Source: Bacteroidia bacterium | Lineage (GTDB): Bacteria; Bacteroidota; Bacteroidia; AKYH767-A; OLB10 | Reading direction: 5' to 3' | Length of the DNA stretch: 64,000 bases | NCBI GenBank assembly: GCA_016788165.1 | Contig: JAEUTH010000021.1 | Coordinates: 1 to 64,000, forward strand | In this document: piece by piece, positions 4,508-17,157 of the stretch | Numbering within the stretch: the first letter of the stretch is position 1 | How the letters are laid out: each line of letters begins with the position of its first letter | Notes under the pieces: generated by a model | What the model was told of the DNA's origin: nothing | Seen by the model: only the letters and a program-made list of their open reading frames with translations | Database searches by the model: none | Made by a program: the position numbers and the translations under genes

Positions 4508-4753
4508 AAGCCCTGCGTTATGCCAATAGTTTTGTTTTTATAAACTTCAAATTAAAAGTTACGAAAGAAGCATTAAATAAGATTTGGCAACAAGCATAAA
4601 AACTGTGGTTTTCGATAATTAGATGCATTTTATAAGCAGTAATAAATGCTTTTTCCAAACAATGTACTGTTAGTAAGTAGCGTTTTATTCAGCCAAATGT
4701 GTAGCTGCCTACCCTGCTCAATATTTAGTTTTACCATTTAAGTATTTTATAAT

Positions 4754-7297
4754 ATGTCGAACGGAAATAAATTCAAATCAAAACAAACGGATGATTTACC
4801 CGAAGAAAAACCGGTAAAAAAGCGCAGTTCAAAAACAACGCCTGCCGAACCTGTTCAAACTGAGGCAATTTCAAACAATTATCAAAAACCGTTACGTTGG
4901 TTGGGGTTGTCGTGTATGTTATTGTCTGTTTTTTTGCTCATTCCTTTTTTTTCATACTTGTTTACGCATGCTGCCGATTTTGATAAAGTAAATCAAACTT
5001 CATGGTTATCACTTTTGGGTAATGCCGATGTTATGGTTGATAATTGGTTGGGTAAATTGGGTGCCATAGTGGCTCATGCATTTATATACAACGGTTTTGG
5101 CATTGCCGCAGCAGTTTTTATTTTATTATCGTTTTTACTGGGTTTTAAACTGGTGTTTAAAGTTGACTTGCTACCCTGGCCAAAAACGTTGAAATACAGT
5201 TTTTTTGCATTATTGTTTTTAAGCATAACACTGGGTTACTTAATGGGTAAACACAGTCATTTATTATGGTTAGGTGGTGTTTATGGATATCAAATGAGTA
5301 CATGGTTAAATGCAACCATTGGCGTATTAGGTACAGGGTTGTTATTAGTTTTTGCCGCCATATTATTTGTGGCATCTGTTTTTAAATATTCATACCAATT
5401 GCCGGTATCTGCACAAAAAGCAGCACCCGAATCGGTTGTCGAAAATACACATGCACCTGCAGCCGGCAATGCCTTGCGCGATGAGGTGAGCACGCCAATT
5501 GTGATGAAAGTTAAAGATGAAATTGCACTCGAAATTGAAGATCCGGTTGAGCCTGAAATTTTTAATTCTGCTATAGAAGCTGATGAAAAGGAAGATGATG
5601 AAGCCGATTTGGAAATGGAAGTTCTAATGCCTGAACTAAAACCTGTTTCATTAGAAGTAACGCCAAACCAGCAGCCTATCGAAAATGAAAATGCAATTGC
5701 AGCAGTACCAATGGATATTGCCTTGCCCGAAGATGAAGCCGTTACTGCTGAAAACCTATTGGCCAAAATGGGTAAGTATGACCCTACTTTGGATTTGTCT
5801 GCTTATAAATATCCAACCATTGATTTGTTGGAAGATTATCAAAGCCGAAAAACGCGTCATACGCCTGAGGAGATTAAAGCCGAACTCGAAGCCAATAAAA
5901 ACAAAATTGTTGTAACCTTAGGACATTACAATATTGAAATAGAAAAAATTAAGGCCACCATTGGCCCAACGGTAACCCTTTTTGAAATTGTTCCCAAAGC
6001 AGGTATTCGAATCTCGAAAATTAAAAATCTGGAAGATGATATCGCATTAAATTTAATGGCCTACGGTATCCGCATTATCGCACCTATGCCGGGCAAAGGT
6101 ACTATAGGCATTGAAGTACCCAATCAACATCCCGAAACGGTAAGCATGCGCTCTGTAATTGCATCCGAAAAATTTAACCAGGGTAATTTTGAATTGCCAT
6201 TGGCCTTGGGTCGTACCATTAGCAACGAAGTATTTGTAACCGATTTGGCAAAAATGCCACACATGTTAATGGCCGGTGCTACAGGTCAGGGTAAATCGGT
6301 TGGCTTAAATGCTGTATTAACTTCGTTATTGTACAGCAAGCATCCATCGCAGGTAAAGTTTGTTTTAGTAGATCCCAAAAAAGTAGAGCTTACATTATTT
6401 AAACGCATCGAGCGTCACTTTTTAGCCAAACTGCCCAATGAAGAAGAAGCCATTATAACCGATACCAAAAAAGTGGTAGCAACATTAAACTCATTGTGTA
6501 TCGAAATGGATAACCGTTATGAGTTGCTTAAAGATGCACAGGTGCGTAACATCAAAGAATACAATCAGAAATTTAATAACCGCAGATTGAATCCCGAAAA
6601 CGGACATCAGTTTTTGCCCTACATTGTTTTGGTTGTTGATGAATTTGCCGATTTAATTATGACGGCCGGGCGCGAAGTTGAAACGCCCATTGCACGCTTA
6701 GCACAATTAGCACGCGCTATTGGTATTCATTTAATTATTGCTACACAGCGACCTTCGGTTAATATTATAACCGGAACAATTAAAGCCAATTTCCCTTGCC
6801 GGATTGCATTTAAAGTAACTTCTAAAATTGATTCACGTACGATTTTAGATGCCGGTGGTGCCGACCAATTAGTGGGTAATGGCGATATGCTGCTTTCAAC
6901 CGGTGCCGATTTAATCAGGTTGCAATGTGCTTTTGTTGATACGGCTGAGGTAGAAAAAATTACCGACTTTATCGGGCAACAACGTGGGTACCCCGATGCA
7001 TTTAAATTACCCGAGTATATTGATCCCAATGGCGAAGCCACAATGGCAACCGATTTTTCGGCTTCGGACAGAGATGCACTTTTTGAAGAAGCTGCCAAAA
7101 TTATTGTGCAACATCAGCAAGGCTCGGCATCGTTACTGCAACGCAGATTAAAATTGGGTTACAACCGTGCCGGACGATTAGTTGATCAGTTAGAAGCAGC
7201 CGGAATTATTGGTGCATTTGAAGGCAGTAAGGCACGCGAGGTAAAAGTAAAAACCGAAGCCGAATTGATGGAGATGCTACATGGACAAAGGGTTTAA
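4754..7297 (+). CDS. ftsK: DNA translocase FtsK/SpoIIIE family
   Basis: An 847-residue protein. The N-terminal 215 residues carry four membrane segments that anchor it at the division septum. An acidic, Ala/Glu-rich linker (about 220-330) follows. The alpha-beta motor has a Walker A P-loop at residues 508-515 (GATGQGKS), a Walker B region with VVDEFADLI, and the ATQRPSV segment typical of FtsK. The C-terminal gamma winged helix (about 775-835, RRLKLGYNRAGRLVDQLE) is the KOPS-reading domain. Role: pumps chromosome-terminus DNA through the closing septum and supports XerCD dimer resolution. All domains are present and the length is normal for Bacteroidota. It is followed 162 bases later by lolA, a common pairing in this phylum. 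Confidence 0.97.
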   Translation: MSNGNKFKSKQTDDLPEEKPVKKRSSKTTPAEPVQTEAISNNYQKPLRWLGLSCMLLSVFLLIPFFSYLFTHAADFDKVNQTSWLSLLGNADVMVDNWLGKLGAIVAHAFIYNGFGIAAAVFILLSFLLGFKLVFKVDLLPWPKTLKYSFFALLFLSITLGYLMGKHSHLLWLGGVYGYQMSTWLNATIGVLGTGLLLVFAAILFVASVFKYSYQLPVSAQKAAPESVVENTHAPAAGNALRDEVSTPIVMKVKDEIALEIEDPVEPEIFNSAIEADEKEDDEADLEMEVLMPELKPVSLEVTPNQQPIENENAIAAVPMDIALPEDEAVTAENLLAKMGKYDPTLDLSAYKYPTIDLLEDYQSRKTRHTPEEIKAELEANKNKIVVTLGHYNIEIEKIKATIGPTVTLFEIVPKAGIRISKIKNLEDDIALNLMAYGIRIIAPMPGKGTIGIEVPNQHPETVSMRSVIASEKFNQGNFELPLALGRTISNEVFVTDLAKMPHMLMAGATGQGKSVGLNAVLTSLLYSKHPSQVKFVLVDPKKVELTLFKRIERHFLAKLPNEEEAIITDTKKVVATLNSLCIEMDNRYELLKDAQVRNIKEYNQKFNNRRLNPENGHQFLPYIVLVVDEFADLIMTAGREVETPIARLAQLARAIGIHLIIATQRPSVNIITGTIKANFPCRIAFKVTSKIDSRTILDAGGADQLVGNGDMLLSTGADLIRLQCAFVDTAEVEKITDFIGQQRGYPDAFKLPEYIDPNGEATMATDFSASDRDALFEEAAKIIVQHQQGSASLLQRRLKLGYNRAGRLVDQLEAAGIIGAFEGSKAREVKVKTEAELMEMLHGQRV

Positions 7298-7430
7298 GCA
7301 TATATTTTAAAAAATATTTTTTTGGCCTTCATTTTAATTAATGAGTTTTTTATGAGCCAAAAACATGTTGAAACGGTTTTGGAAAACTTATTGTAATGCA
7401 CCATGCTTTAAGTGCATTCATTTAAAAGTT

Positions 7431-7438
7431 TAATTTTG
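7431..7438 (+). promoter_or_regulatory. Candidate -7 box upstream of lolA
   Basis: TAATTTTG matches the Bacteroidota -7 consensus TAnnTTTG at every fixed position and would start transcription about 15 bases before the lolA ATG at 7460. No convincing -33 TTG is seen at the expected distance. A 7-base-pair hairpin (7395-7418) just upstream could be a weak ftsK terminator. Confidence 0.4.
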
Positions 7439-7459
7439 AGCCCTCATTAATTTCCACCC

Positions 7460-8104
7460 ATGAAAAAAGTAGTAGTTGTATTGGTTTTTCTTGTATCAAA
7501 TATTTTAGCGCAAGCACAAGTTGACCCGAAAGCACAAGAAATTTTAAAAAGTGTAAGTGTAAAGTATAAATCATTCAAAACACTTAGTGCCAAGTTTAAA
7601 GTAAATGTTACCGACCAAAAAACCAAAACAAATGAAAGCCAGGTTGGTACCGTAATTTTAAAAGGCAATAAGTACAAGCTGCTTTTAGGCGCACAAGAAA
7701 TTATATCAGACGGTAACATTGTTTGGACTTATTTAAAGGATGCCAATGAAGTACAGTTAAACGATCCCAAAAGCGACCCAAATGCCATATCGCCTACCAA
7801 CATGTTTACTATTTATGAAAAAGGATTTAAATCGAAATTTATAGGCGAAAAAGTAGTAGGAGGTAAGGCTGTTCAAATTATTGAACTGGTACCTGAAGAT
7901 ACAAAGCGTAATTTTAGTAAAGTACAACTTACGGTTAGTAAAGCCGAAAAATATATTACGCAAGCAATTATCTATCAGAAAAACGGTGCCAATATAAGTT
8001 ACGCTGTGCAAGAGTTTAAGCCCAATATACCTGCCGATGATATTATGTTTACATTTAACAAAGCCAAGTACCCCGGCTGCGAAGAAGTTGATTTACGCAA
8101 CTAA
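7460..8104 (+). CDS. lolA: Outer-membrane lipoprotein carrier protein LolA-like
   Basis: A 214-residue periplasmic protein with a signal peptide of about 20 residues ending AQAQ. The mature part matches the LolA/LolB fold by sequence character: early QEILKSVSVKYKSFKTLSAKFKV, then alternating beta strands with GTVILKGNKYKL, a DGNIVWTYLKD strand, and a C-terminal strand FTFNKAKYPG. Family role: carries lipoproteins from the Lol ABC transporter across the periplasm. Bacteroidota have no canonical LolB, so the receiving end is unclear. Its position after ftsK supports the assignment. A stand-alone outer-membrane-lipoprotein sorting domain with another role cannot be excluded. Confidence 0.85.
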   Translation: MKKVVVVLVFLVSNILAQAQVDPKAQEILKSVSVKYKSFKTLSAKFKVNVTDQKTKTNESQVGTVILKGNKYKLLLGAQEIISDGNIVWTYLKDANEVQLNDPKSDPNAISPTNMFTIYEKGFKSKFIGEKVVGGKAVQIIELVPEDTKRNFSKVQLTVSKAEKYITQAIIYQKNGANISYAVQEFKPNIPADDIMFTFNKAKYPGCEEVDLRN

Positions 8105-8120
8105 TTTACGTTGATGTATT

Positions 8121-10289
8121 TTATCTGGCTTTAGGGTTTGATGCTTTAACCACTTTGTCTTTTGATTTTTTATCCGAACGTTTATTATCATTTTCATCAA
8201 TAGGCATTAAGTGTTGCACATCGGCTATGGTTTTAAAACTGCCAAATAAAATATGTGCTTTATTGTTTTGTAAATGTTCAAGCAAACCTAATGTTTTACT
8301 GCCTTTAAGCTTAACCCACATGCCGGGTTTTAATTGTGCAATATAGGCTTGTTGTTTTACAGCTTCGGCTTTGTTTACTACCTGCTCGTTGTTATTGCGT
8401 TGTTTATCGTATAGTTGTTTATATTTTTCAAGTACCTGTTTTTTATTTTTTGCATGATTCCATTCGTTAATAAACTTCAGCATTCTGCTATCAAATTCCT
8501 GAATTAACCTTAGTTCAGTTTTTTTTATCTTTTCGTCAAACTTCGATTTGCTGTTTTCGTTTTGTTGCCGTAGCTTTTCATACTTCTCCAACAAATCATT
8601 TAAATCTTTTTCTGCATGTTCAATCTGAATTAATTTGGATGTTATGGTGTTCTTGTCTTTCTCAACCTGTTGCAATAAATTTTCGAGCAACACATGGTTT
8701 TTCGAAACTTTACTTTGTGCACTTTCAATAACTTTTTTTGACAAGCCACTCCGTTCGGCAACTACAAAAGTATAGCTGCTGCCTGGCTTTCCAATAACTA
8801 ACTCATACATAGGCTCCAGCTTAATCTGGTCGAAAAGCATACTGCCATTTATTAATCCTGCAGTACGATCGGCTTGTACTTTTAAGTTTAAAAAATGGGT
8901 AGTTATCAATCCAAAACATTTTTTCTGATTTAGCGATTCCAAAATAGATTCGGCTAAGGCTCCACCCATTTCTGGGTCGGTGCCGGTACCAAACTCATCA
9001 ATTATAAACAACGATTTTGGGCCGGCTTCCTGTAAAAACATTTTCATTTTTTGTAAGCGCGATGCATACGTGCTTAATTCATAAGCAATGCTTTGTGAGT
9101 CGCCTATCTCAATTAAAAAATTATTAAAAAACCCACATACACTGCTTTCATGTGTACTAATTAAAAAACCGGCTTGCAGCATAATTTGTAAAAGTGCAGT
9201 AGCTTTCATGCATACTGTTTTGCCACCGGCATTAGGTCCGCTAATTACCAATATGCGGTTTTGTTGATTTAACAACAAAGTAAACGGAATGGTTTTTTTG
9301 CCCGATTTAATGTGTTGCAGTATCAACAATGGATGCCGTGCATCTTTTAGTTGTATAAACGGTTGCGATGATAGCAGCGGCATGCATGCTTTTAATTGAA
9401 GTGCAAATAAAGCTTTGGCTCGTAAAAAATCGGTAATGGTTATTAATTCAAAGTATTGGTTTAGTACCAATGTAAATTGCCTGAGGTTGGTAGTTAACGC
9501 CCGTAGTATGCGTAAAATTTCTTGACGCTCGTCTTGTTCTAATGCAGCTATTATATTGTTTATTTCAACTGCTGCTTCGGGCTCCAGGTAAGCCGTTTTG
9601 CCTGTGGCCGATACATCGTGTACAATGCCATTTAAACTCCGTTTTTGTTCGGCTACAATAGATATTACCCTACGGCCATTACGTGTACTTTCTTCTATTT
9701 CGCTAATCCATCCGTTTTTTTTATACTTATTTATCAGTTGTAAGTAGATGCGGTCGGCTTCGGCACGTTTGCGTTGCAACGTTTTTCTGATGTTTGCCAA
9801 TGCATCCGATGCCGATGATTTTACAATACCAAATTCATCGAAAACATTTTCAATCAGTAAACTAATTTGCGGCTCATAATAAATATTGTTTGCTGTTTGT
9901 GCTGCATGCGGATAAAGAACATGCTTGTTGCTGTAAAAAAGCAAAATGCTTTTTATGGCTTGTGTTAGCGATAAAATTTTAAGGCAATGCTCAGCACTCA
10001 AAACCGCATTTTCAATCCGCAAAATATTCAGCTCACGGCTAATGTCTTCGTAGCCTTCGGCAACAAACGACTCAGCATTGTCAATAATTTTTTTAAAGTC
10101 ATTGGTTTGGCTTAACCAGGTAAGCATCGTTTCGAAACTGCCTGTAGGTTGTGCGTTTTGCATACATGCTGCACCCATAGTACTAAGACAAAAAGTTTGG
10201 GCCTGTTTTTTAATTTGCTCAAACTCATCGGTAAGCAAGTTAGTAGTGGGATACACTTCGGCTTTTTGGTTCGGGTAGGGCAACATCAT
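8121..10289 (-). CDS. MutS2 family ATPase lacking a Smr domain
   Basis: A 722-residue MutS-family protein of the MutS2 branch, without the mismatch-reading MutS-I domain. Residues to about 310 are the core/lever helices, with an SATGKTAYLEPE segment. The ATPase has Walker A at 351-358 (GPNAGGKT), Walker B IIDEFGTGTDP near 440, and the helix with TTHFLNLK. A long coiled coil (about 510-635) is followed by a small KOW-like beta domain containing KPGMWVKLKG, then a Lys-rich tail. The C-terminal Smr nuclease domain of classic MutS2, with its LDLHG motif, is absent. Family roles include suppression of recombination and stalled-ribosome splitting; the Smr-less form probably keeps only the ATPase-clamp part. 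hslR starts upstream on the same strand, 8 bases away, so they are likely co-transcribed. Confidence 0.88.
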   Translation of the reverse strand: MMLPYPNQKAEVYPTTNLLTDEFEQIKKQAQTFCLSTMGAACMQNAQPTGSFETMLTWLSQTNDFKKIIDNAESFVAEGYEDISRELNILRIENAVLSAEHCLKILSLTQAIKSILLFYSNKHVLYPHAAQTANNIYYEPQISLLIENVFDEFGIVKSSASDALANIRKTLQRKRAEADRIYLQLINKYKKNGWISEIEESTRNGRRVISIVAEQKRSLNGIVHDVSATGKTAYLEPEAAVEINNIIAALEQDERQEILRILRALTTNLRQFTLVLNQYFELITITDFLRAKALFALQLKACMPLLSSQPFIQLKDARHPLLILQHIKSGKKTIPFTLLLNQQNRILVISGPNAGGKTVCMKATALLQIMLQAGFLISTHESSVCGFFNNFLIEIGDSQSIAYELSTYASRLQKMKMFLQEAGPKSLFIIDEFGTGTDPEMGGALAESILESLNQKKCFGLITTHFLNLKVQADRTAGLINGSMLFDQIKLEPMYELVIGKPGSSYTFVVAERSGLSKKVIESAQSKVSKNHVLLENLLQQVEKDKNTITSKLIQIEHAEKDLNDLLEKYEKLRQQNENSKSKFDEKIKKTELRLIQEFDSRMLKFINEWNHAKNKKQVLEKYKQLYDKQRNNNEQVVNKAEAVKQQAYIAQLKPGMWVKLKGSKTLGLLEHLQNNKAHILFGSFKTIADVQHLMPIDENDNKRSDKKSKDKVVKASNPKAR

Positions 10290-10297
10290 ACTAAAAT

Positions 10298-10678
10298 CTA
10301 TATCTCAAAATTGCCTTCCCAAATAAAGTCATCTAACTCGCGCCTGTCTTTTTTAGTAGGTCGCCCGCTGCCTTTATCGCGCCATACAGCCGTTGCTTTG
10401 CGCATGGCTGCATGTTTAAGCAGTAAATCGGGTGCAGTGGTTTCATTACAAAAATCTTTTACCAAGGCTGCACTAACACGGTTTGCAGGCAAAGCAAGCA
10501 CTGTAAAACTGCGCGTTAGCATGCCATAACTAAAAGTAATTGCATCGGTTGTTTTAATTGTACGAGCCGGCTTAACAACCTGCTCATTAACGGTAACTTT
10601 ACCCTTATTACATGCTTCGGCAGCTAACGACCTGCTTTTAAAAATCCTGACTGCCCAAAGCCACTTATCTATCCGCAT
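10298..10678 (-). CDS. hslR: S4-domain RNA-binding protein, HslR/Hsp15 family
   Basis: A 126-residue protein. Residues 1-65 form an S4 RNA-binding fold opening with the diagnostic MRIDKWLWAVRIFKSRSLA and continuing with GKVTVNE. The C-terminal half holds a short beta hairpin and a basic tail (GRPTKKDRRELDDF) typical of Hsp15. Family role: binds the free 50S subunit carrying a stalled nascent chain and helps recycle it. It precedes the MutS2-family gene by 8 bases. Both families have been linked to stalled-ribosome handling, which makes the pairing suggestive, but this is inference. Confidence 0.9.
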   Translation of the reverse strand: MRIDKWLWAVRIFKSRSLAAEACNKGKVTVNEQVVKPARTIKTTDAITFSYGMLTRSFTVLALPANRVSAALVKDFCNETTAPDLLLKHAAMRKATAVWRDKGSGRPTKKDRRELDDFIWEGNFEI

Positions 10679-10731
10679 AATTAAGTTCCATTTTTATAAA
10701 CTTCAATTTTATGTATTCATATAAAGTCGCA

Positions 10732-10739
10732 CAAATGTA
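10732..10739 (-). promoter_or_regulatory. Candidate -7 box upstream of hslR
   Basis: On the minus strand TACATTTG matches TAnnTTTG fully and lies 53 bases before the hslR start codon. A -33 element at the right spacing is not evident. Confidence 0.3.
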
Positions 10740-11270
10740 GTTGTAAAGCACAACATAATTAAGCTTTCATTTATTTTTGAAGTGTTGCTTCTGAATGGTG
10801 TTTTATGAAACTATATCTCAAACTGCAACTATTACAATTGTAGGCAAATAAAACGGCTGGTGCACTTGCCTGTTGCATGCAGTAACACCAGATGGAAGTA
10901 TAAAGCGGTAAGTAGTATTGCCATTTGCACAACTTGTAAACATTAGCTGGTTTTTTCAAAACAACGTTTCCGTATAAAAACACTTTTATTCTATCGGGCG
11001 AAATCCGGGAATAAGTGTCAGCATCTGTAACATCATTAATTTCGTTTTATGCCCGTATCGAATCGTTGGTAATTGTTGGCCGCCTGATTCATAGTTCATG
11101 AAACGGTCTTTATTGCAAAGCAGTATTTTTAAAGGTGCTCGCAATACAACCTCCTTAATTAAAAGAAAGCTTCGCTAAACTTTTTTGAGAATAACCGTTT
11201 ACAGAAGTAATGCATTTATTATAAATATACATATTTTTAAATGGAACTTTAAGTTAGGATTCTGCAATTA

Positions 11271-11320
11271 TTTAACCTAAATCGCCATAACGAAGTTTAC
11301 AATAGTAATGGGCTTTGTAA
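11271..11320. repeat. Dispersed intergenic repeat, copy 2
   Basis: The second copy of the 50-base repeat at 334-383, 47 of 50 bases identical and in the same orientation. It lies 330 bases upstream of ychF in non-coding DNA and is followed by two abutting heptamer arrays. Confidence 0.75.
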
Positions 11321-11345
11321 AACACCGGCACGTTTAGGCACAGCA

Positions 11346-11381
11346 TGAGGCTTGAGGCAAGTGGTATGTGGTATGTGGTAT
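11346..11381. repeat. Two abutting heptamer tandem arrays
   Basis: TGAGGCT and TGAGGCA occupy 11346-11352 and 11353-11359. After one base, three perfect GTGGTAT units run from 11361 to 11381. Both arrays have a 7-base period, as does the array after repeat copy 1, although the units differ in sequence. Confidence 0.75.
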
Positions 11382-11649
11382 AGATTGGAATGTGAACATT
11401 GAAAATAAAATTAATTGTTAGATTGAAGATATCAATTTGTTTGCTGCTTCCAAAAACTTGAAAAAGTTATTTTATAAAAAAACTAACAATATGTTACTTA
11501 GTTAATCATATTCAATTTAAAATTTATAAAACAAAATGTTTCCTTTGCCGCCCGAAAAATGGGTAGTTTTAAGTAGGAGCTACACGTCAATATAAAGGCG
11601 TGATTTTTATCTTTTATCCCCTTTTTTCATAACGCAAAAAATAATAATT

Positions 11650-12744
11650 ATGAAGTGTGGTATTGTAGGTTTACCCAATGTAGGTAAATCAACCTTATTT
11701 AATTGCTTAAGCAATGCCAAAGCGCAGGCAGCTAATTTTCCGTTTTGTACCATTGAACCCAATTTAGGGGTAATAACTGTACCCGATGAGCGTTTGCAAG
11801 CGTTAGAGGCAATAGTAAATCCGCAAAAGGTAGTGCCCACCACGGTTGAAATTGTGGATATAGCTGGCTTGGTAAAAGGTGCAAGCAAAGGCGAGGGTTT
11901 AGGTAATCAGTTTTTAGCCAACATACGCGAGTGTGATGCCATTTTACATGTACTGCGTTGCTTTGATGATGATAATATCATACACGTTGATGGCAGTGTT
12001 AACCCGGTACGTGATAAAGAAATTATAGATACCGAACTACAGCTTAAAGATTTAGAAACAATTGAAAAAAAAATGCAGCGTTTCGAAAAAGCTGCCAAAG
12101 TTGGTACTGATAAAGAGGCAAAAAAAACCTATGAAGTATTAAGCAGATATAAAGATGCATTAGAAGTAGGTAAAAGTGCCAGGGCAGCCGGTGTAAGTAT
12201 TGAAGATGCTGCCTATGCAGCCGATTGTTACCTGTTAACCAATAAGCCTGTACTGTATGTTTGTAATGTGGATGAAAAGTCGGTGGTTAACGGTAACCGC
12301 TATGTTGATGCAGTAAAAGCCGCAGTTGCTAATGAAGGCGCTGAAATTTTGATTATTGCAGCAGCAATAGAAGCTGATATTGCATCGCTCGAAAGTTTTG
12401 ATGAACGCCAAATGTTTTTAGCCGATTTGGGCTTGACAGAAAGCGGTGTTTCGAAATTGATTAAGCTCAGCTACAAGTTACTCAATCTTCAAACATACTT
12501 TACTGCCGGTGTAAAAGAAGTGCGTGCCTGGACCATAGAAAAGGGAATGACAGCCCCACAGGCAGCCGGTGTAATACATACCGATTTTGAAAAAGGGTTT
12601 ATACGTGCCGAAGTAATTAAGTACGATGATTTTATTAAATTAAAATCGGAAGCCGCTTGCAAAGAAGCCGGTAAAATGGGTGTAGAGGGTAAGGAGTATG
12701 TAGTAGCCGATGGCGATATCATGCATTTTAGATTTAATGTTTAA
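11650..12744 (+). CDS. ychF: Redox-regulated ATPase YchF (Obg-related OLA1 family)
   Basis: A 364-residue P-loop NTPase of normal family length. The G1 loop GLPNVGKS is at residues 7-14. The switch/G3 segment [20 protein letters not shown] follows, and the G4 position reads NVDE (206-209) rather than NKxD. That non-canonical G4 is the hallmark explaining ATP rather than GTP preference in this family. A helical hairpin lies about 130-190, and a C-terminal TGS domain closes the protein ([13 protein letters not shown] to [10 protein letters not shown]). Family role: ribosome-associated ATPase tied to stress and redox responses. It stands alone, preceded by the long non-coding region. Confidence 0.97.
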
Positions 12745-12898
12745 ATAGATAAGCCGTAGAGCTAAATTTCAGTTTTGAATTAAATCTATTTTAATTTTTA
12801 TTTCGTAGATATTTAGCTACAAAAATGTTTTATTAGCCGCTTCTATTTAGAATTTTAAACACAACGTTATTTTTTGACTTAAAAAACAACCTTTTATC

Positions 12899-13633
12899 AT
12901 GAGAATCAAAATTTCCTTTTTGCGTGATCAGTCATCGAGCAATTCAATACCATTACACCATCAAAAATTATTATCGGCTGCATTACATGAAATTGCCAGT
13001 GCTGTTTCGCCAACACCGGTTCCTTTTAATTTCAGTTCTATAAAAGGAACATCACGCATACAAAATGGCATCATGAAATTTTTATCAACCAAGGTTACTT
13101 TGGTTATTTCTGCACCCGATGCCGAATTTTTTAATAAACTGATAACTGAAATTTTCAGCCGTCCTTACATTAGTGTAGGCAAGCTAAATCTGATACCGAA
13201 AAATAAGGAAATGTTAGCCGACCCGGTGTTTCAAAAGCGTATGCGTTACTTATGTATTTCACCTTTGGTGCTTACCAATCCCGATATTGACCCGGATGTG
13301 AATCAAGAAATTATCTCACCTGTTTCAACCGAGTTTAGCGATGCACTTTTTAATGGTACATTGGATCGGATGGAAGCTGCCGGATATTCCGAGGATAAAT
13401 TGGCGCAGTATGCTGAGTTTGAAGTAAAACCTGACAGAGAGTATGTTGAAAAAATTCAAGACTCGGGTAAAAAATTTGCTCGCTATTATAAAAGCTCAAA
13501 AGGCAATAGTATGATGGGTTATTTATTGCCTTTTACCTTACATGCCCATCCCGATGTGCATGAATTTATTTGGAATAATGGTGCCGGTGCCCTTACCGAT
13601 CAAGGTTACGGTATGGTTGATATTGTAGCATAA
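12899..13633 (+). CDS. Orphan Cas6-like endoribonuclease family protein
   Basis: A 244-residue protein with the sequence character of CRISPR-associated Cas6. The first strand MRIKISF is followed by IPLHHQKLL (His20, His21), matching the usual start of the first ferredoxin-like domain, where a neighbouring histidine often serves catalysis. The C-terminus carries the glycine-rich loop NNGAGALTDQGYGMVDI (Gly228, Gly230, Gly236, Gly238), the most diagnostic Cas6 feature. Known family role: cleaves repeat RNA to make crRNAs. No other cas gene and no array exists in this window; neighbours are ychF and a cell-wall glycosyltransferase. Inference: either a crRNA processor acting on a distant array or a domesticated RNA-binding protein with another target. 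The fold call is reasonably sure, the activity is not. Confidence 0.72.
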   Translation: MRIKISFLRDQSSSNSIPLHHQKLLSAALHEIASAVSPTPVPFNFSSIKGTSRIQNGIMKFLSTKVTLVISAPDAEFFNKLITEIFSRPYISVGKLNLIPKNKEMLADPVFQKRMRYLCISPLVLTNPDIDPDVNQEIISPVSTEFSDALFNGTLDRMEAAGYSEDKLAQYAEFEVKPDREYVEKIQDSGKKFARYYKSSKGNSMMGYLLPFTLHAHPDVHEFIWNNGAGALTDQGYGMVDIVA

Positions 13634-13695
13634 CTTTTATAAAATTACTTTTTAAGGAGGATGCATAATGTCCTCCTCTTTTTATTTTAGCCAAC

Positions 13696-15639
13696 ATGAT
13701 ATTCAAGAAAATTGCCTGGAGTTTGCTGGCTTTGGTATTAGTTGTTTGCATAACTGCAGTACTAATGCGCAACACATTATTGCAATGGGGTTTTGAAAAA
13801 ATTCAGGAAAGAGCCAGAAAAAAAAATGTAAGCCTAACCGTTAGCGAAATTGATTTTAAGGGTTTAAAAACTATTAGCATAAACAATTTGTCTGTCAAGC
13901 CTGATAGTTCAGATACATTATTGGTGATAAAAAAAGCCGATGTAACAATTAGCTGGCTTACATTTTTAAAATTAGAACCGGTTATTAATAAACTGGATGC
14001 CGATAGTGTAATCCTTACCATATATCGTTTACAAAACCGAAACAATATTGCGTTTTTAAATAGCCATAAAACGGATACTACTCAAATAAACACTGCAAAT
14101 GGTTACAACCATAAAATATCGGGTATAGCAAACCGTGTTTTTAAATTATTAGATGTAGCTACAACCATTAACAACCTGTATTTATCTTATGCAGATAGCA
14201 CCTATAACCAAACCATTATAGTACCTTCATTTGTTTATGATTTAAAACAATTGCAAACCTGTGCATTATTAAAAACACAAAATAAGTTCGACACTTTATT
14301 TGTTTCGGCCCAAGTGGAAAAAGAGGGTAAAGTGTATCATTATAATATATCACATCCGGCCGGTGGTAAAACATACTTACCAATTTTAAAGCAAGAAAAA
14401 TTTCCGAAACTGGGTTTTAAATCCATTAGCGGTAAACTTACCTATAACTACCTTAACGACATTGAATTAGGTATTGATGCACAAATTGCCGACCTGCATA
14501 TAAATCATTGGCGCTTATCTGAAAGTGATGTGGTAATGCCTCAAACGCAATTTATAGGTACCATTAAAATTGGTGTTCAAAATTTATCTATTGACAGTAC
14601 ATCTGTTTTGAAGTTAAATAATGCACAGGCAATGTTGTATGCAAATTTTTCGAAAGCTGAAAAAAACAGCTATGCATTTAAAATTACAATGGAACCCACC
14701 CAAGCCGACACTTTTTTTAAAGCATTGCCCTTAGGCATGTTTAATACACTGAGAGGCATAAAAACAAAGGGTACCTTAAGTTTTAATTTAAATTTTGAAT
14801 TAAATGGTTCGAAACCTGATGATGTAAAGTTTGAAGCATCATTACAAAAGAAGAATTTTAGCATTATAAACTTTGGTGCCGAGTACTATGGTCGAATAAA
14901 TCAAACTTTTTTGTTTGATGCATTAGATGGCGACAGGTTAGTAAGGCAATTAACCGTTGGACCCGAGAGTAATACTTTTACACCTTTTGCAGATATAAGC
15001 AGTTACCTTAAATATGCAGTACTAACCAGCGAAGACGGTTCATTTATGTACCATCACGGCTTTAATGAGGACGCATTCAGGCAGTCAATAGCTACTAACT
15101 ACAAACAGGGACGTTTTGCCAGAGGCGGCAGCACCATAACCATGCAATTGGTTAAAAACTGCTTTTTAAGTCGCGATAAAACAGTATCGCGTAAAGCCGA
15201 AGAAGCATTAATAGTATGGCTTATCGAAAACTGTGGTTTGGTAAGTAAGGAGCGCATGCTCGAAGTATATTTAAACGTAATTGAATGGGGCCCTGACGTA
15301 TATGGCATAGGCGAAGCTGCAGGCTTTTATTTTGCCAAACAACCTAAAGATTTAACTTTAGCAGAAAGCATTTTTTTAGCAAGTATAATTCCACACCCAA
15401 AATATTTTAAATATTCGTTTAGTCAGGATGCAACATTAAAGCCTTTTTTAACATCATATTATAAATTACTTTCTAATAAGATGTTAGGCCGCAATTGGAT
15501 AACCGATGCCGATACAGTTGGCCTAACAGCAAATGTTATATTAACAGGGCCAGCTAAAAACTTTGTATTACAGGCAACCGATAGTTTGCCAATGCCAGCC
15601 GACTCCATATTGCAACAAGACTTACAAATTGTTGATTAG
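13696..15639 (+). CDS. AsmA-like / GT51 peptidoglycan glycosyltransferase fusion
   Basis: A 647-residue single-pass membrane protein. The N-terminal anchor (about 5-25) is followed by a long beta-rich region (about 30-400) whose FKGLKTISINNLSV style and repeated strands resemble AsmA/DUF748-type lipid-transfer-like domains. Residues about 425-600 form a GT51 domain: Glu446 in SEDGSF, the GGSTITMQLVKN block, RKAEEALIVWLIE with the second catalytic Glu, and LEVYLNVIEWG. There is no transpeptidase domain, so it should polymerise lipid II glycan strands but not cross-link them. The ATG at 13696 follows cas6-like by 62 bases. An AT-rich hairpin past the stop may end transcription. Confidence 0.85.
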   Translation: MIFKKIAWSLLALVLVVCITAVLMRNTLLQWGFEKIQERARKKNVSLTVSEIDFKGLKTISINNLSVKPDSSDTLLVIKKADVTISWLTFLKLEPVINKLDADSVILTIYRLQNRNNIAFLNSHKTDTTQINTANGYNHKISGIANRVFKLLDVATTINNLYLSYADSTYNQTIIVPSFVYDLKQLQTCALLKTQNKFDTLFVSAQVEKEGKVYHYNISHPAGGKTYLPILKQEKFPKLGFKSISGKLTYNYLNDIELGIDAQIADLHINHWRLSESDVVMPQTQFIGTIKIGVQNLSIDSTSVLKLNNAQAMLYANFSKAEKNSYAFKITMEPTQADTFFKALPLGMFNTLRGIKTKGTLSFNLNFELNGSKPDDVKFEASLQKKNFSIINFGAEYYGRINQTFLFDALDGDRLVRQLTVGPESNTFTPFADISSYLKYAVLTSEDGSFMYHHGFNEDAFRQSIATNYKQGRFARGGSTITMQLVKNCFLSRDKTVSRKAEEALIVWLIENCGLVSKERMLEVYLNVIEWGPDVYGIGEAAGFYFAKQPKDLTLAESIFLASIIPHPKYFKYSFSQDATLKPFLTSYYKLLSNKMLGRNWITDADTVGLTANVILTGPAKNFVLQATDSLPMPADSILQQDLQIVD

Positions 15640-15641
15640 AG

Positions 15642-15668
15642 ACAAAAATTGCGCGAATTAATTTTTGT
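15642..15668. terminator. Possible bidirectional terminator between GT51 gene and pyrB
   Basis: ACAAAAATT (15642-15650) pairs with AATTTTTGT (15660-15668) over a 9-base loop between two convergent genes. It overlaps the pyrB stop. The stem is AT-rich and therefore weak, but T/A tracts flank it on both sides. Confidence 0.4.
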
Positions 15669-16590
15669 TATTGGCCGCAAGCAGATATAAAACGGCCATA
15701 CGAATAGCAACACCGTTTTCAACCTGATTTAAAATAATGGCTTGTTCGCTATCGGCCACATCACTTGTTATTTCAACACCGCGGTTTATGGGCCCCGGAT
15801 GCATAATTACAATTGGTTTATCAAGTTGATTCAAAATGTTTTTGTTTAATCCATACATCATAGTGTATTCGCGCAACGATGGAAAATATTTAAGGTCTTG
15901 CCGTTCTAACTGGATACGAAGCATATTGGCTACATCGCACCACTGCAACGCTTTTTTCAAATCAAGTTCAATTGATACGCCTAGTTGCTCAATATACTTG
16001 GGCATAAGTGTAAGCGGGCCACAAACTTTTACTTCGGCACCTAATTTTTTAAGACATAAGATATTGCTTAAGGCTACCCGTGAGTGAAGTATATCGCCAA
16101 CAATAACCACTTTACGTCCAGCAACATCGCCTAAAGTTTGCTTTATGCTAAATGCATCAAGTAAGGCTTGTGTAGGGTGTTCATGTGCGCCATCACCGGC
16201 ATTTATAATATTGGCATTAACATAATTACTTAAAAAATAGGGTGCACCGGCTTTGGGATGGCGCATAACTATCATATCAACCTTCATGGCCAATATGTTG
16301 TTTACCGTATCAATTAATGTTTCACCTTTACTTACGCTACTGCCGCTGGTGCTAAAATTTATCACATCAGCACTTAAACGTTTTTCGGCAAGTTCGAATG
16401 ATAGTTTGGTGCGTGTACTGTTTTCGAAAAAAATATTGGCTACTGTAATATCTCTTAACGAGGGTACCTTTTTAATGGGCCTATTTATTACCTCTTTAAA
16501 ATTTTCGGCTGTAGAAAAAATAAGTTCAATATCATCGGCAGTCAGGTCTTTAATGCCTATCAGATGTTTAACACTTAATGCAGTGGCCAT
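15658..16590 (-). CDS. pyrB: Aspartate carbamoyltransferase catalytic subunit
   Basis: A 310-residue enzyme of the usual length. It joins carbamoyl phosphate and aspartate in the first committed step of pyrimidine synthesis. Visible motifs are the carbamoyl-phosphate loop FENSTRTKLSFE near residue 54, the HPTQALLD segment, and HPGPINRG near 265 in the aspartate domain. pyrR lies 21 bases upstream on the same strand, so the two form an operon. No pyrI regulatory-subunit gene is adjacent, consistent with the unregulated class of ATCase trimers, but pyrI elsewhere cannot be ruled out. Confidence 0.97.
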   Translation of the reverse strand: MATALSVKHLIGIKDLTADDIELIFSTAENFKEVINRPIKKVPSLRDITVANIFFENSTRTKLSFELAEKRLSADVINFSTSGSSVSKGETLIDTVNNILAMKVDMIVMRHPKAGAPYFLSNYVNANIINAGDGAHEHPTQALLDAFSIKQTLGDVAGRKVVIVGDILHSRVALSNILCLKKLGAEVKVCGPLTLMPKYIEQLGVSIELDLKKALQWCDVANMLRIQLERQDLKYFPSLREYTMMYGLNKNILNQLDKPIVIMHPGPINRGVEITSDVADSEQAIILNQVENGVAIRMAVLYLLAANNKN

Positions 16591-16611
16591 TAATTCTTTA
16601 ATTTTTCAGTA

Positions 16612-17157
16612 TCAGGTATTAGTTGTATGCAGCCAAACGCTGTCGTTTAAATCGGTTTCCTTCCATTGCACACTTACGGTATCTGCATCAATACTATCAA
16701 TTGCATGGCCTGTGTAATTGGGCGATATAGGTAGCTGGCGGGCAAATTTTCTGTCAATCAAGGTAAGCAATTCTACTTTGCGTGGTCTGCCAAATGCCAG
16801 TAAAGCATCTAAGCCAGCGCGTATGGTACGGCCTGTAAAAAGAACATCATCAACTAAAACCACTTTCTTATCTTCAATTATAAAATCAATTTTAGTTGCA
16901 TTGGCCTTCGCTACTTCTGCTCTGCGCCTAAAATCATCACGATAAAATGTTATATCTAACTCTCCATACAATACCGGTGTGTTAGGCAACCATGCATCAA
17001 GCATGGTTACAATGCGTCTGGCTAAAAAAATACCACGCGGTTGCAAGCCGATAATTGCCGAATGTTCAAAATTATGGTGATTCTCAATCAACTGATAGCA
17101 AAGCCTGCGTATGGTAATTTCAAAAGCTTGAGAATTTAATATTAATCGCGATTGCAT
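16612..17157 (-). CDS. pyrR: Bifunctional pyr operon regulator / uracil phosphoribosyltransferase PyrR
   Basis: A 181-residue PRTase-fold protein. The PRPP-binding loop reads VLVDDVLFTGRT and the N-terminal part has LIGLQPRGIFLARRI-type sequence. I place the start at the ATG complementary to 17155-17157. The frame extends 10 codons further to a TTG, but a -7 box (17185-17192) overlaps that TTG, which would put it upstream of the transcript. In Firmicutes PyrR binds pyr leader RNA to cause attenuation. Here the leader before the ATG would be only about 20 bases, so no attenuator is visible ahead of pyrR. Operon partner: pyrB. Confidence 0.93.
   Translation of the reverse strand: MQSRLILNSQAFEITIRRLCYQLIENHHNFEHSAIIGLQPRGIFLARRIVTMLDAWLPNTPVLYGELDITFYRDDFRRRAEVAKANATKIDFIIEDKKVVLVDDVLFTGRTIRAGLDALLAFGRPRKVELLTLIDRKFARQLPISPNYTGHAIDSIDADTVSVQWKETDLNDSVWLHTTNT

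Follow-up and report, generated by a model that had tools for sequence, protein, structure and literature searches.

A very probably domesticated Cas6 without its nuclease triad, encoded outside CRISPR loci in several Bacteroidota lineages and often beside ychF

The locus and its surroundings

The window (the whole 64-kb stretch of DNA analysed here) carries the gene of a 244-residue Cas6-like protein between ychF and a GT51 transglycosylase gene, the latter starting after a gap of 62 nt (Table 1). An earlier sequence-only reading of this DNA had described the reading frame, its glycines at positions 228, 230, 236 and 238 and both neighbours, and all of these were confirmed, the neighbours by matches to PF06071 and PF00912. 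That reading was also right in seeing no repeat-spacer array: zero direct repeats of at least 20 nt spaced within 150 nt occur in the 64 kb. Neither class 1 cas genes nor an array lay beside the gene in the window or in the other loci examined, and the gene and its orthologs are hereafter called solo cas6.

Table 1. Features of the solo cas6 locus and of the type II CRISPR locus in the same genome (the latter numbered within the piece L030, G000:C10:33000-46181)
Feature	Position	Strand	Remarks
ychF (Obg-family ATPase; PF06071)	11650..12744	+	154 nt upstream of cas6; neighbour kept in three lineages
ychF-cas6 intergenic region	12745..12898	+	neither conserved RNA structure (relatives) nor Rfam match
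solo Cas6-fold protein gene	12899..13633	+	244 aa; end includes stop codon; canonical catalytic triad lost
codons 20-22, His-His-Gln	12956..12964	+	no alignment to catalytic His
GT51 transglycosylase (PF00912), N-terminal DUF748-like part	13696..15639	+	after cas6 in most family members and in other families of the order
cas9 (L030)	4612-8904		type II locus
cas1 (L030)	10215-11150		type II locus
cas2 (L030)	11460-11801		type II locus
array (L030)	12435-13165		type II locus

The suggestion that the protein might act on a structured UTR was followed up for its own mRNA and found no footing there, as no conserved structured leader was detected upstream of cas6 in either the window's family or the second family described below (RNAalifold energy 0.0), nor any Rfam match at positions 10000-17000 of the window; an autoregulatory RNA in the leader was accordingly rejected. 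A mobile origin of the gene was rejected as well: searches with solo Cas6 turned up neither a phage match nor a related viral contig, the sole match in the plasmid collection was a large Bernardetia replicon of 602 kb carrying purQ and rimM, and the G+C content of the gene (0.38) is near that of the window (0.37).

Cas6 fold of the predicted protein

The window protein exceeds the cut-offs of two curated Cas6 models, scoring 69.4 bits on TIGR01877 (cut-off 58.65) and 56.5 on PF01881, Cas_Cas6_C (cut-off 23), and it matches Cas6b of PADLOC at 4e-30; unlike these two models, PF10040 gave no match. TIGR01877, an NCBIfam equivalog, matches all 31 members of one ortholog alignment, with the window's protein above the cut-off. 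One member of the second family scores 46.3 on it, which is below the cut-off, yet passes PF01881.

The AlphaFold2 model of the protein, made with 31 orthologs, reached a pLDDT of 93.1 and a pTM of 0.88. Its comparison with Cas6 structures (Foldseek, VIA-align), a check proposed in the sequence-only reading, aligned it over its full length (214-224 residues) at rmsd 2.2-2.4 Å and Z 24.5-25.6, with 5yi6 first (25.6), followed by PH0350 and PfuCas6nc (3UFC), both at 25.2, and P. furiosus Cas6 (24.5). The model has the tandem RRM/ferredoxin-like RAMP fold, and the comparison settles the Cas6 fold of the protein. Moreover, the C-terminal glycine-rich loop is intact throughout, G228, G230, G236 and G238 being invariant in 81 solo and 21 CRISPR Cas6 proteins.

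Loss of the catalytic triad

The catalytic residues of P. furiosus Cas6 are Tyr31, His46 and Lys52 (PMC3652601), and in our alignment their equivalents are invariant in all 21 CRISPR Cas6 proteins of Bacteroidota. Unlike these, the 81 aligned solo proteins (39 from the window's own order, 39 from the second family, f9, and three from the third, f95) have the catalytic histidine deleted together with its loop without exception, and so does the protein of Bernardetia. The f95 proteins look intermediate, with a longer loop that has no conserved histidine. The tyrosine is replaced in f9 and f95 and kept in 5 of 39 proteins of the own order; the lysine, in a stretch where the alignment is uncertain, is replaced in these two groups as well, and again 5 of 39 own-order proteins keep it. 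We class the window protein as a member of the Cas6 superfamily but not among the CRISPR Cas6 endoribonucleases.

The sequence-only reading had found His20 and His21 in their usual place. Both are present and conserved, but they were ruled out as the catalytic histidine of Cas6, since the true position is deleted and residues 20-22 pair with the N-H-Q of 5yi6, a protein that has its LH and FK residues opposite the gap of the solo proteins. Conservation across relatives divides the two: His21 is invariant in 81 of 81 aligned solo proteins and in Bernardetia, whereas His20, invariant like the rest of the His-His-Gln motif in the own order and the second family, gives way to asparagine in the third lineage (N-H-L) and to tyrosine in Bernardetia (Y-H-Q). 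Since the motif aligns with a part of 5yi6 separate from its LH/FK residues, it looks structural, and His21 is on this alignment probably a structural residue.

A further set of residues marks the solo proteins: K49 (in LKG), S147-D148 (in FSD, at a helix start) and K191, R195 and Y197 (in KxxxRxY) are present in 80-81 of the 81 and in Bernardetia and are missing as a set from CRISPR Cas6. The proteins are also acidic, with a median pI of 5.7-5.9 (net charge about -5) as opposed to 8.4 for the CRISPR Cas6 compared, which argues against broad RNA binding and weakens a simple RNA-binding picture.

These features bear on whether the protein still cuts RNA. The active site might have moved, for instance to His21 or to K49, K191, R195 and Y197, leaving a ribonuclease that trims or cuts cellular RNA. 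The invariance of His21 and the very low dN/dS (see below) would fit such an enzyme, and so would the plasticity of Cas6 active sites: S. solfataricus Cas6 has no catalytic histidine and still cleaves RNA, slowly (PMC3652601), so that loss of the triad is no proof of lost activity. We nevertheless judge a relocated nuclease distinctly unlikely, given the structural look of residues 20-22, the variation of the motif in f95 and Bernardetia, and the loss of the tyrosine and lysine positions, too, in most solo proteins. As judged from the alignment, solo Cas6 is probably non-cleaving.

The acidity and the solo-specific S147-D148, together with the ychF neighbourhood, could also be explained if the RAMP scaffold now served as an acidic adaptor for YchF or some ribosome factor, making protein contacts in place of RNA binding. 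This we consider rather unlikely, because the glycine-rich loop, K49, K191, R195 and Y197 show no or almost no variation, as would be expected of a putative RNA-facing surface. Rather than such an adaptor, we favour a protein that may bind some cellular RNA.

Distribution, inheritance and selection

Solo cas6 is single-copy in all 24 genomes of the window's family and likewise occurs once in 41 of 42 genomes of its order (33/33 of the good-quality ones). The second family, f9, which is probably Cyclobacteriaceae since a genome of that name falls inside it, has the gene in 128 of 148 genomes and 75 of 84 genera. Further carriers are one genus of f95 and Bernardetia (Bernardetiaceae), where the gene lies on the 602-kb replicon. 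In samples of 392 genomes from the phylum and 395 from the class, strong matches were limited to the own order, f9 and the single f95 genus.

The 20 genomes of f9 without solo cas6 make up largely whole genera. Half of the eight non-carriers inspected have an intact neighbourhood with ychF followed at once by the next gene, cas6 having been cleanly removed, so the absence is a loss of the gene. In L253, L254, L256 and L261, which come from several genera, the gene now following ychF is that of a T9SS plug protein, and such genomes are natural deletion strains for comparison. The clean loss in some genera indicates that solo cas6 is not essential. Where kept, the gene is under strong purifying selection (dN/dS 0.006-0.051, median 0.025 over 85 pairs). 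In the tree, solo and CRISPR Cas6 split at a support of 100/100 and the solo lineages follow taxonomy. The distribution, trees, alignment and model together leave us highly confident that solo cas6 is a vertically inherited core gene of several Bacteroidota lineages.

Relation to CRISPR

The genome of the window (3.34 Mb in 46 contigs, 99.8% complete) is not devoid of CRISPR. The window is array-free, but contig C10 of its genome carries a type II locus with cas9, cas1, cas2 and an array (Table 1). The encoded Cas9 has 1430 residues, and the array consists of 46-nt repeats with about 30-nt spacers and runs to the contig end; an ATPase-like reading frame (9073-10206) lies between cas9 and cas1. 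The search for effector cas genes through the rest of the genome, likewise proposed in the sequence-only reading, found no RAMP gene (PF03787) and no Cas3 above the cut-off, so type II is the only CRISPR system detected; Cas3 above the cut-off was also absent from all 42 genomes of the order. Type II systems need no Cas6, as their crRNA is matured with tracrRNA and RNase III.

Since the genome does have an array, and since Cas6 is provided in trans for most type III systems (PMC12669027), the protein might be thought to process crRNA for an array elsewhere in the genome, as the sequence-only reading had considered. This is now highly improbable: the one array locus detected is of type II, neither RAMP nor Cas3 above the cut-off was found in the genome, no member of the ortholog group retains the canonical triad, and most carriers have no cas1 at all. 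Indeed, cas1 was found in 5 of 24 genomes of the window's family and 60 of 148 of f9, where no association of solo cas6 with cas1 carriage was found (Fisher p=0.15). Genomes with a Cas6-using system have a second Cas6 of their own. In f9, where it serves as an internal control, it appears as a weak match of 25-47 bits, while the solo copy scores 175-222. Of 17 such second matches, 15 have a cas1 on their contig at a distance of no more than 10 kb; the f9 solo copies examined, by contrast, follow ychF.

Two other CRISPR loci had unusual features. In L033 (G022:C39), the repeats of an array next to a gene of Cas9 size come in two forms (20-339 compared with the rest of the array): four repeats at one end carry CCCCGACCCATCGGGG (a hairpin) where the others read TTTCTA, which makes the four longer. 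In genome G011, an RT-Cas1 fusion of 876 residues (L031:1971-4598, minus strand) lies next to an array whose repeats measure about 36 nt. The N-terminal ~290 residues of the fusion close with the glycine-rich GSEFGFGTRLSNAQG, resembling the Cas6 loop, but a Cas6 domain in this fusion was not confirmed by Pfam or PADLOC.

Neighbourhood of solo cas6

Immediately upstream of cas6, and on its strand, stands ychF in every one of the 24 loci examined from f9, two of which are near-identical; the same holds for 3 of 3 f95 loci and for five own-order loci from three families (the window, L120, L183, L184 and L186). What else flanks cas6 varies with the lineage: f9 has DUF3276, a membrane protein and a T9SS plug protein, the own order either a ParE/GyrB-like gene or GT51, and f95 a T9SS-sorted protein or dxr. 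The gene order ychF-cas6-GT51, expected by the sequence-only reading to be worth tracing in relatives, thus persists in its first part across three lineages, while the GT51 neighbour is limited to the own order. In about 50 other families, ychF is not followed by cas6.

Many own-order members have no ychF adjacency, and in several of these cas6 has been relocated, often together with GT51, so that linkage to ychF is not strictly required. In much of the window's family (L105-L117) the cas6-GT51 pair now stands behind two tandem rhomboid-protease genes, in some cases with an endonuclease/exonuclease/phosphatase gene upstream of cas6 as well. Within f9 the whole neighbourhood is conserved, and adjacency to ychF may there be plain synteny. 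The ychF trees broadly follow taxonomy, which makes a recent joint transfer of a ychF-cas6 cassette unlikely. Either a common ancestor already had the pair and many descendants lost it, or cas6 came to lie behind ychF repeatedly; in both cases coupling would be suggested.

The adjacency might instead be functionless, and the protein serve some other purpose, such as one shared with the GT51 cell-wall enzyme of the window's order, where cas6-GT51 adjacency is common and the gap is down to -4 to 12 nt in some genomes. We regard this as unlikely, as cas6 of the second and third lineages is not followed by GT51 and ychF is the only neighbour common to all three.

A proposed role beside YchF

The distribution, trees, alignment and model point with high confidence to a domesticated Cas6 that left CRISPR and lost the nuclease triad together with the His loop. 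Because the triad is lost and the gene is kept with or without CRISPR, often beside ychF, it probably has a new cellular job. In the course of events that we propose, a two-RRM RAMP protein would have left the CRISPR context, shed Tyr, His and Lys along with the histidine-bearing loop and settled as a core gene, passed on vertically, in several lineages of Bacteroidota. It would have retained the Cas6 fold and the glycine-rich loop without cleaving, and might use K49, S147-D148, K191, R195 and Y197 to bind a particular cellular RNA or an RNA-protein surface, acting with or beside the ribosome-associated ATPase YchF in translation or stress control.

In E. coli, YchF is a binding partner of IF3 and of the small ribosomal subunit and keeps the translation of leaderless mRNA in check (PMC8138138), and in enterobacteria ychF and pth share an operon (PMC8779481); both make an RNA-related partner for YchF plausible. 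RNA binding linked to YchF or translation is what we tentatively judge the most likely role, going by its fold, the residues it has kept and its place near ychF, and we give the full explanation, a domesticated Cas6 with a non-cleaving RNA-binding mechanism involving YchF, an even chance. The idea that the protein was recruited to a cellular RNA fares well as to a non-CRISPR role, favoured by core status, vertical inheritance, independence of cas1, the ychF neighbourhood and the Cas6 fold; the cutting of such RNA, which had been offered as an alternative, found no positive support.

Relation to described Cas proteins and significance

The nearest described precedent is the non-catalytic Cas6 of Pyrococcus. 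3UFC, PfuCas6nc, has been termed a non-catalytic Cas6 (PMC3652601); by sequence profile, no solved structures come closer than it (5e-13) and PH0350 (3QJJ/3QJL/3QJP; 1.7e-10), and both are also among the top ones by fold. Judged by model and alignment, the solo protein likewise combines a Cas6 fold with absence of the catalytic residues. However, it is only about 20% identical to the Pyrococcus paralogs, and these are archaeal proteins from hosts with catalytic Cas6 and CRISPR, while the solo group is bacterial, core, mostly CRISPR-less and found beside ychF. With CRISPR Cas6/Cas6b (TIGR01877, PF01881) it shares the two-RRM fold, the glycine-rich loop and the Cas6 label given by curated models; it differs in having no triad, in lying away from cas genes and arrays, in vertical, cas1-independent inheritance, in its acidity and in its own signature. 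Solo Cas4 and solo Cas1 (casposase) are similar cases of a Cas family encoded outside CRISPR loci, and no description of a Cas6 counterpart to them was found. A literature search, mainly of open-access papers, returned no account of a bacterial Cas6 that is core or solo, nor any paper in which ychF and Cas6 are both named.

Cas6 is regarded as dedicated to CRISPR maturation, and here strong purifying selection keeps a whole Cas6 ortholog group, most of whose genomes have no cas1, for a non-CRISPR use. Automated annotation (TIGR01877, PGAP) labels this core gene a CRISPR-associated endoribonuclease, as in Bernardetia NZ_CP147018.1 ('CRISPR-associated endoribonuclease Cas6'), and surveys of orphan cas6 in Bacteroidota are thereby misled. 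It is possible, though less likely than not, that solo Cas6 is a housekeeping RNA-binding factor recruited long ago to work with YchF, and the first core, CRISPR-independent Cas6 of bacteria. The pairing with ychF offers a concrete candidate partner for the poorly understood YchF/Ola1 ATPase and, if true, would link the CRISPR RNA-recognition fold to translation control, a cellular use of that fold that is directly testable in cultivable bacteria.
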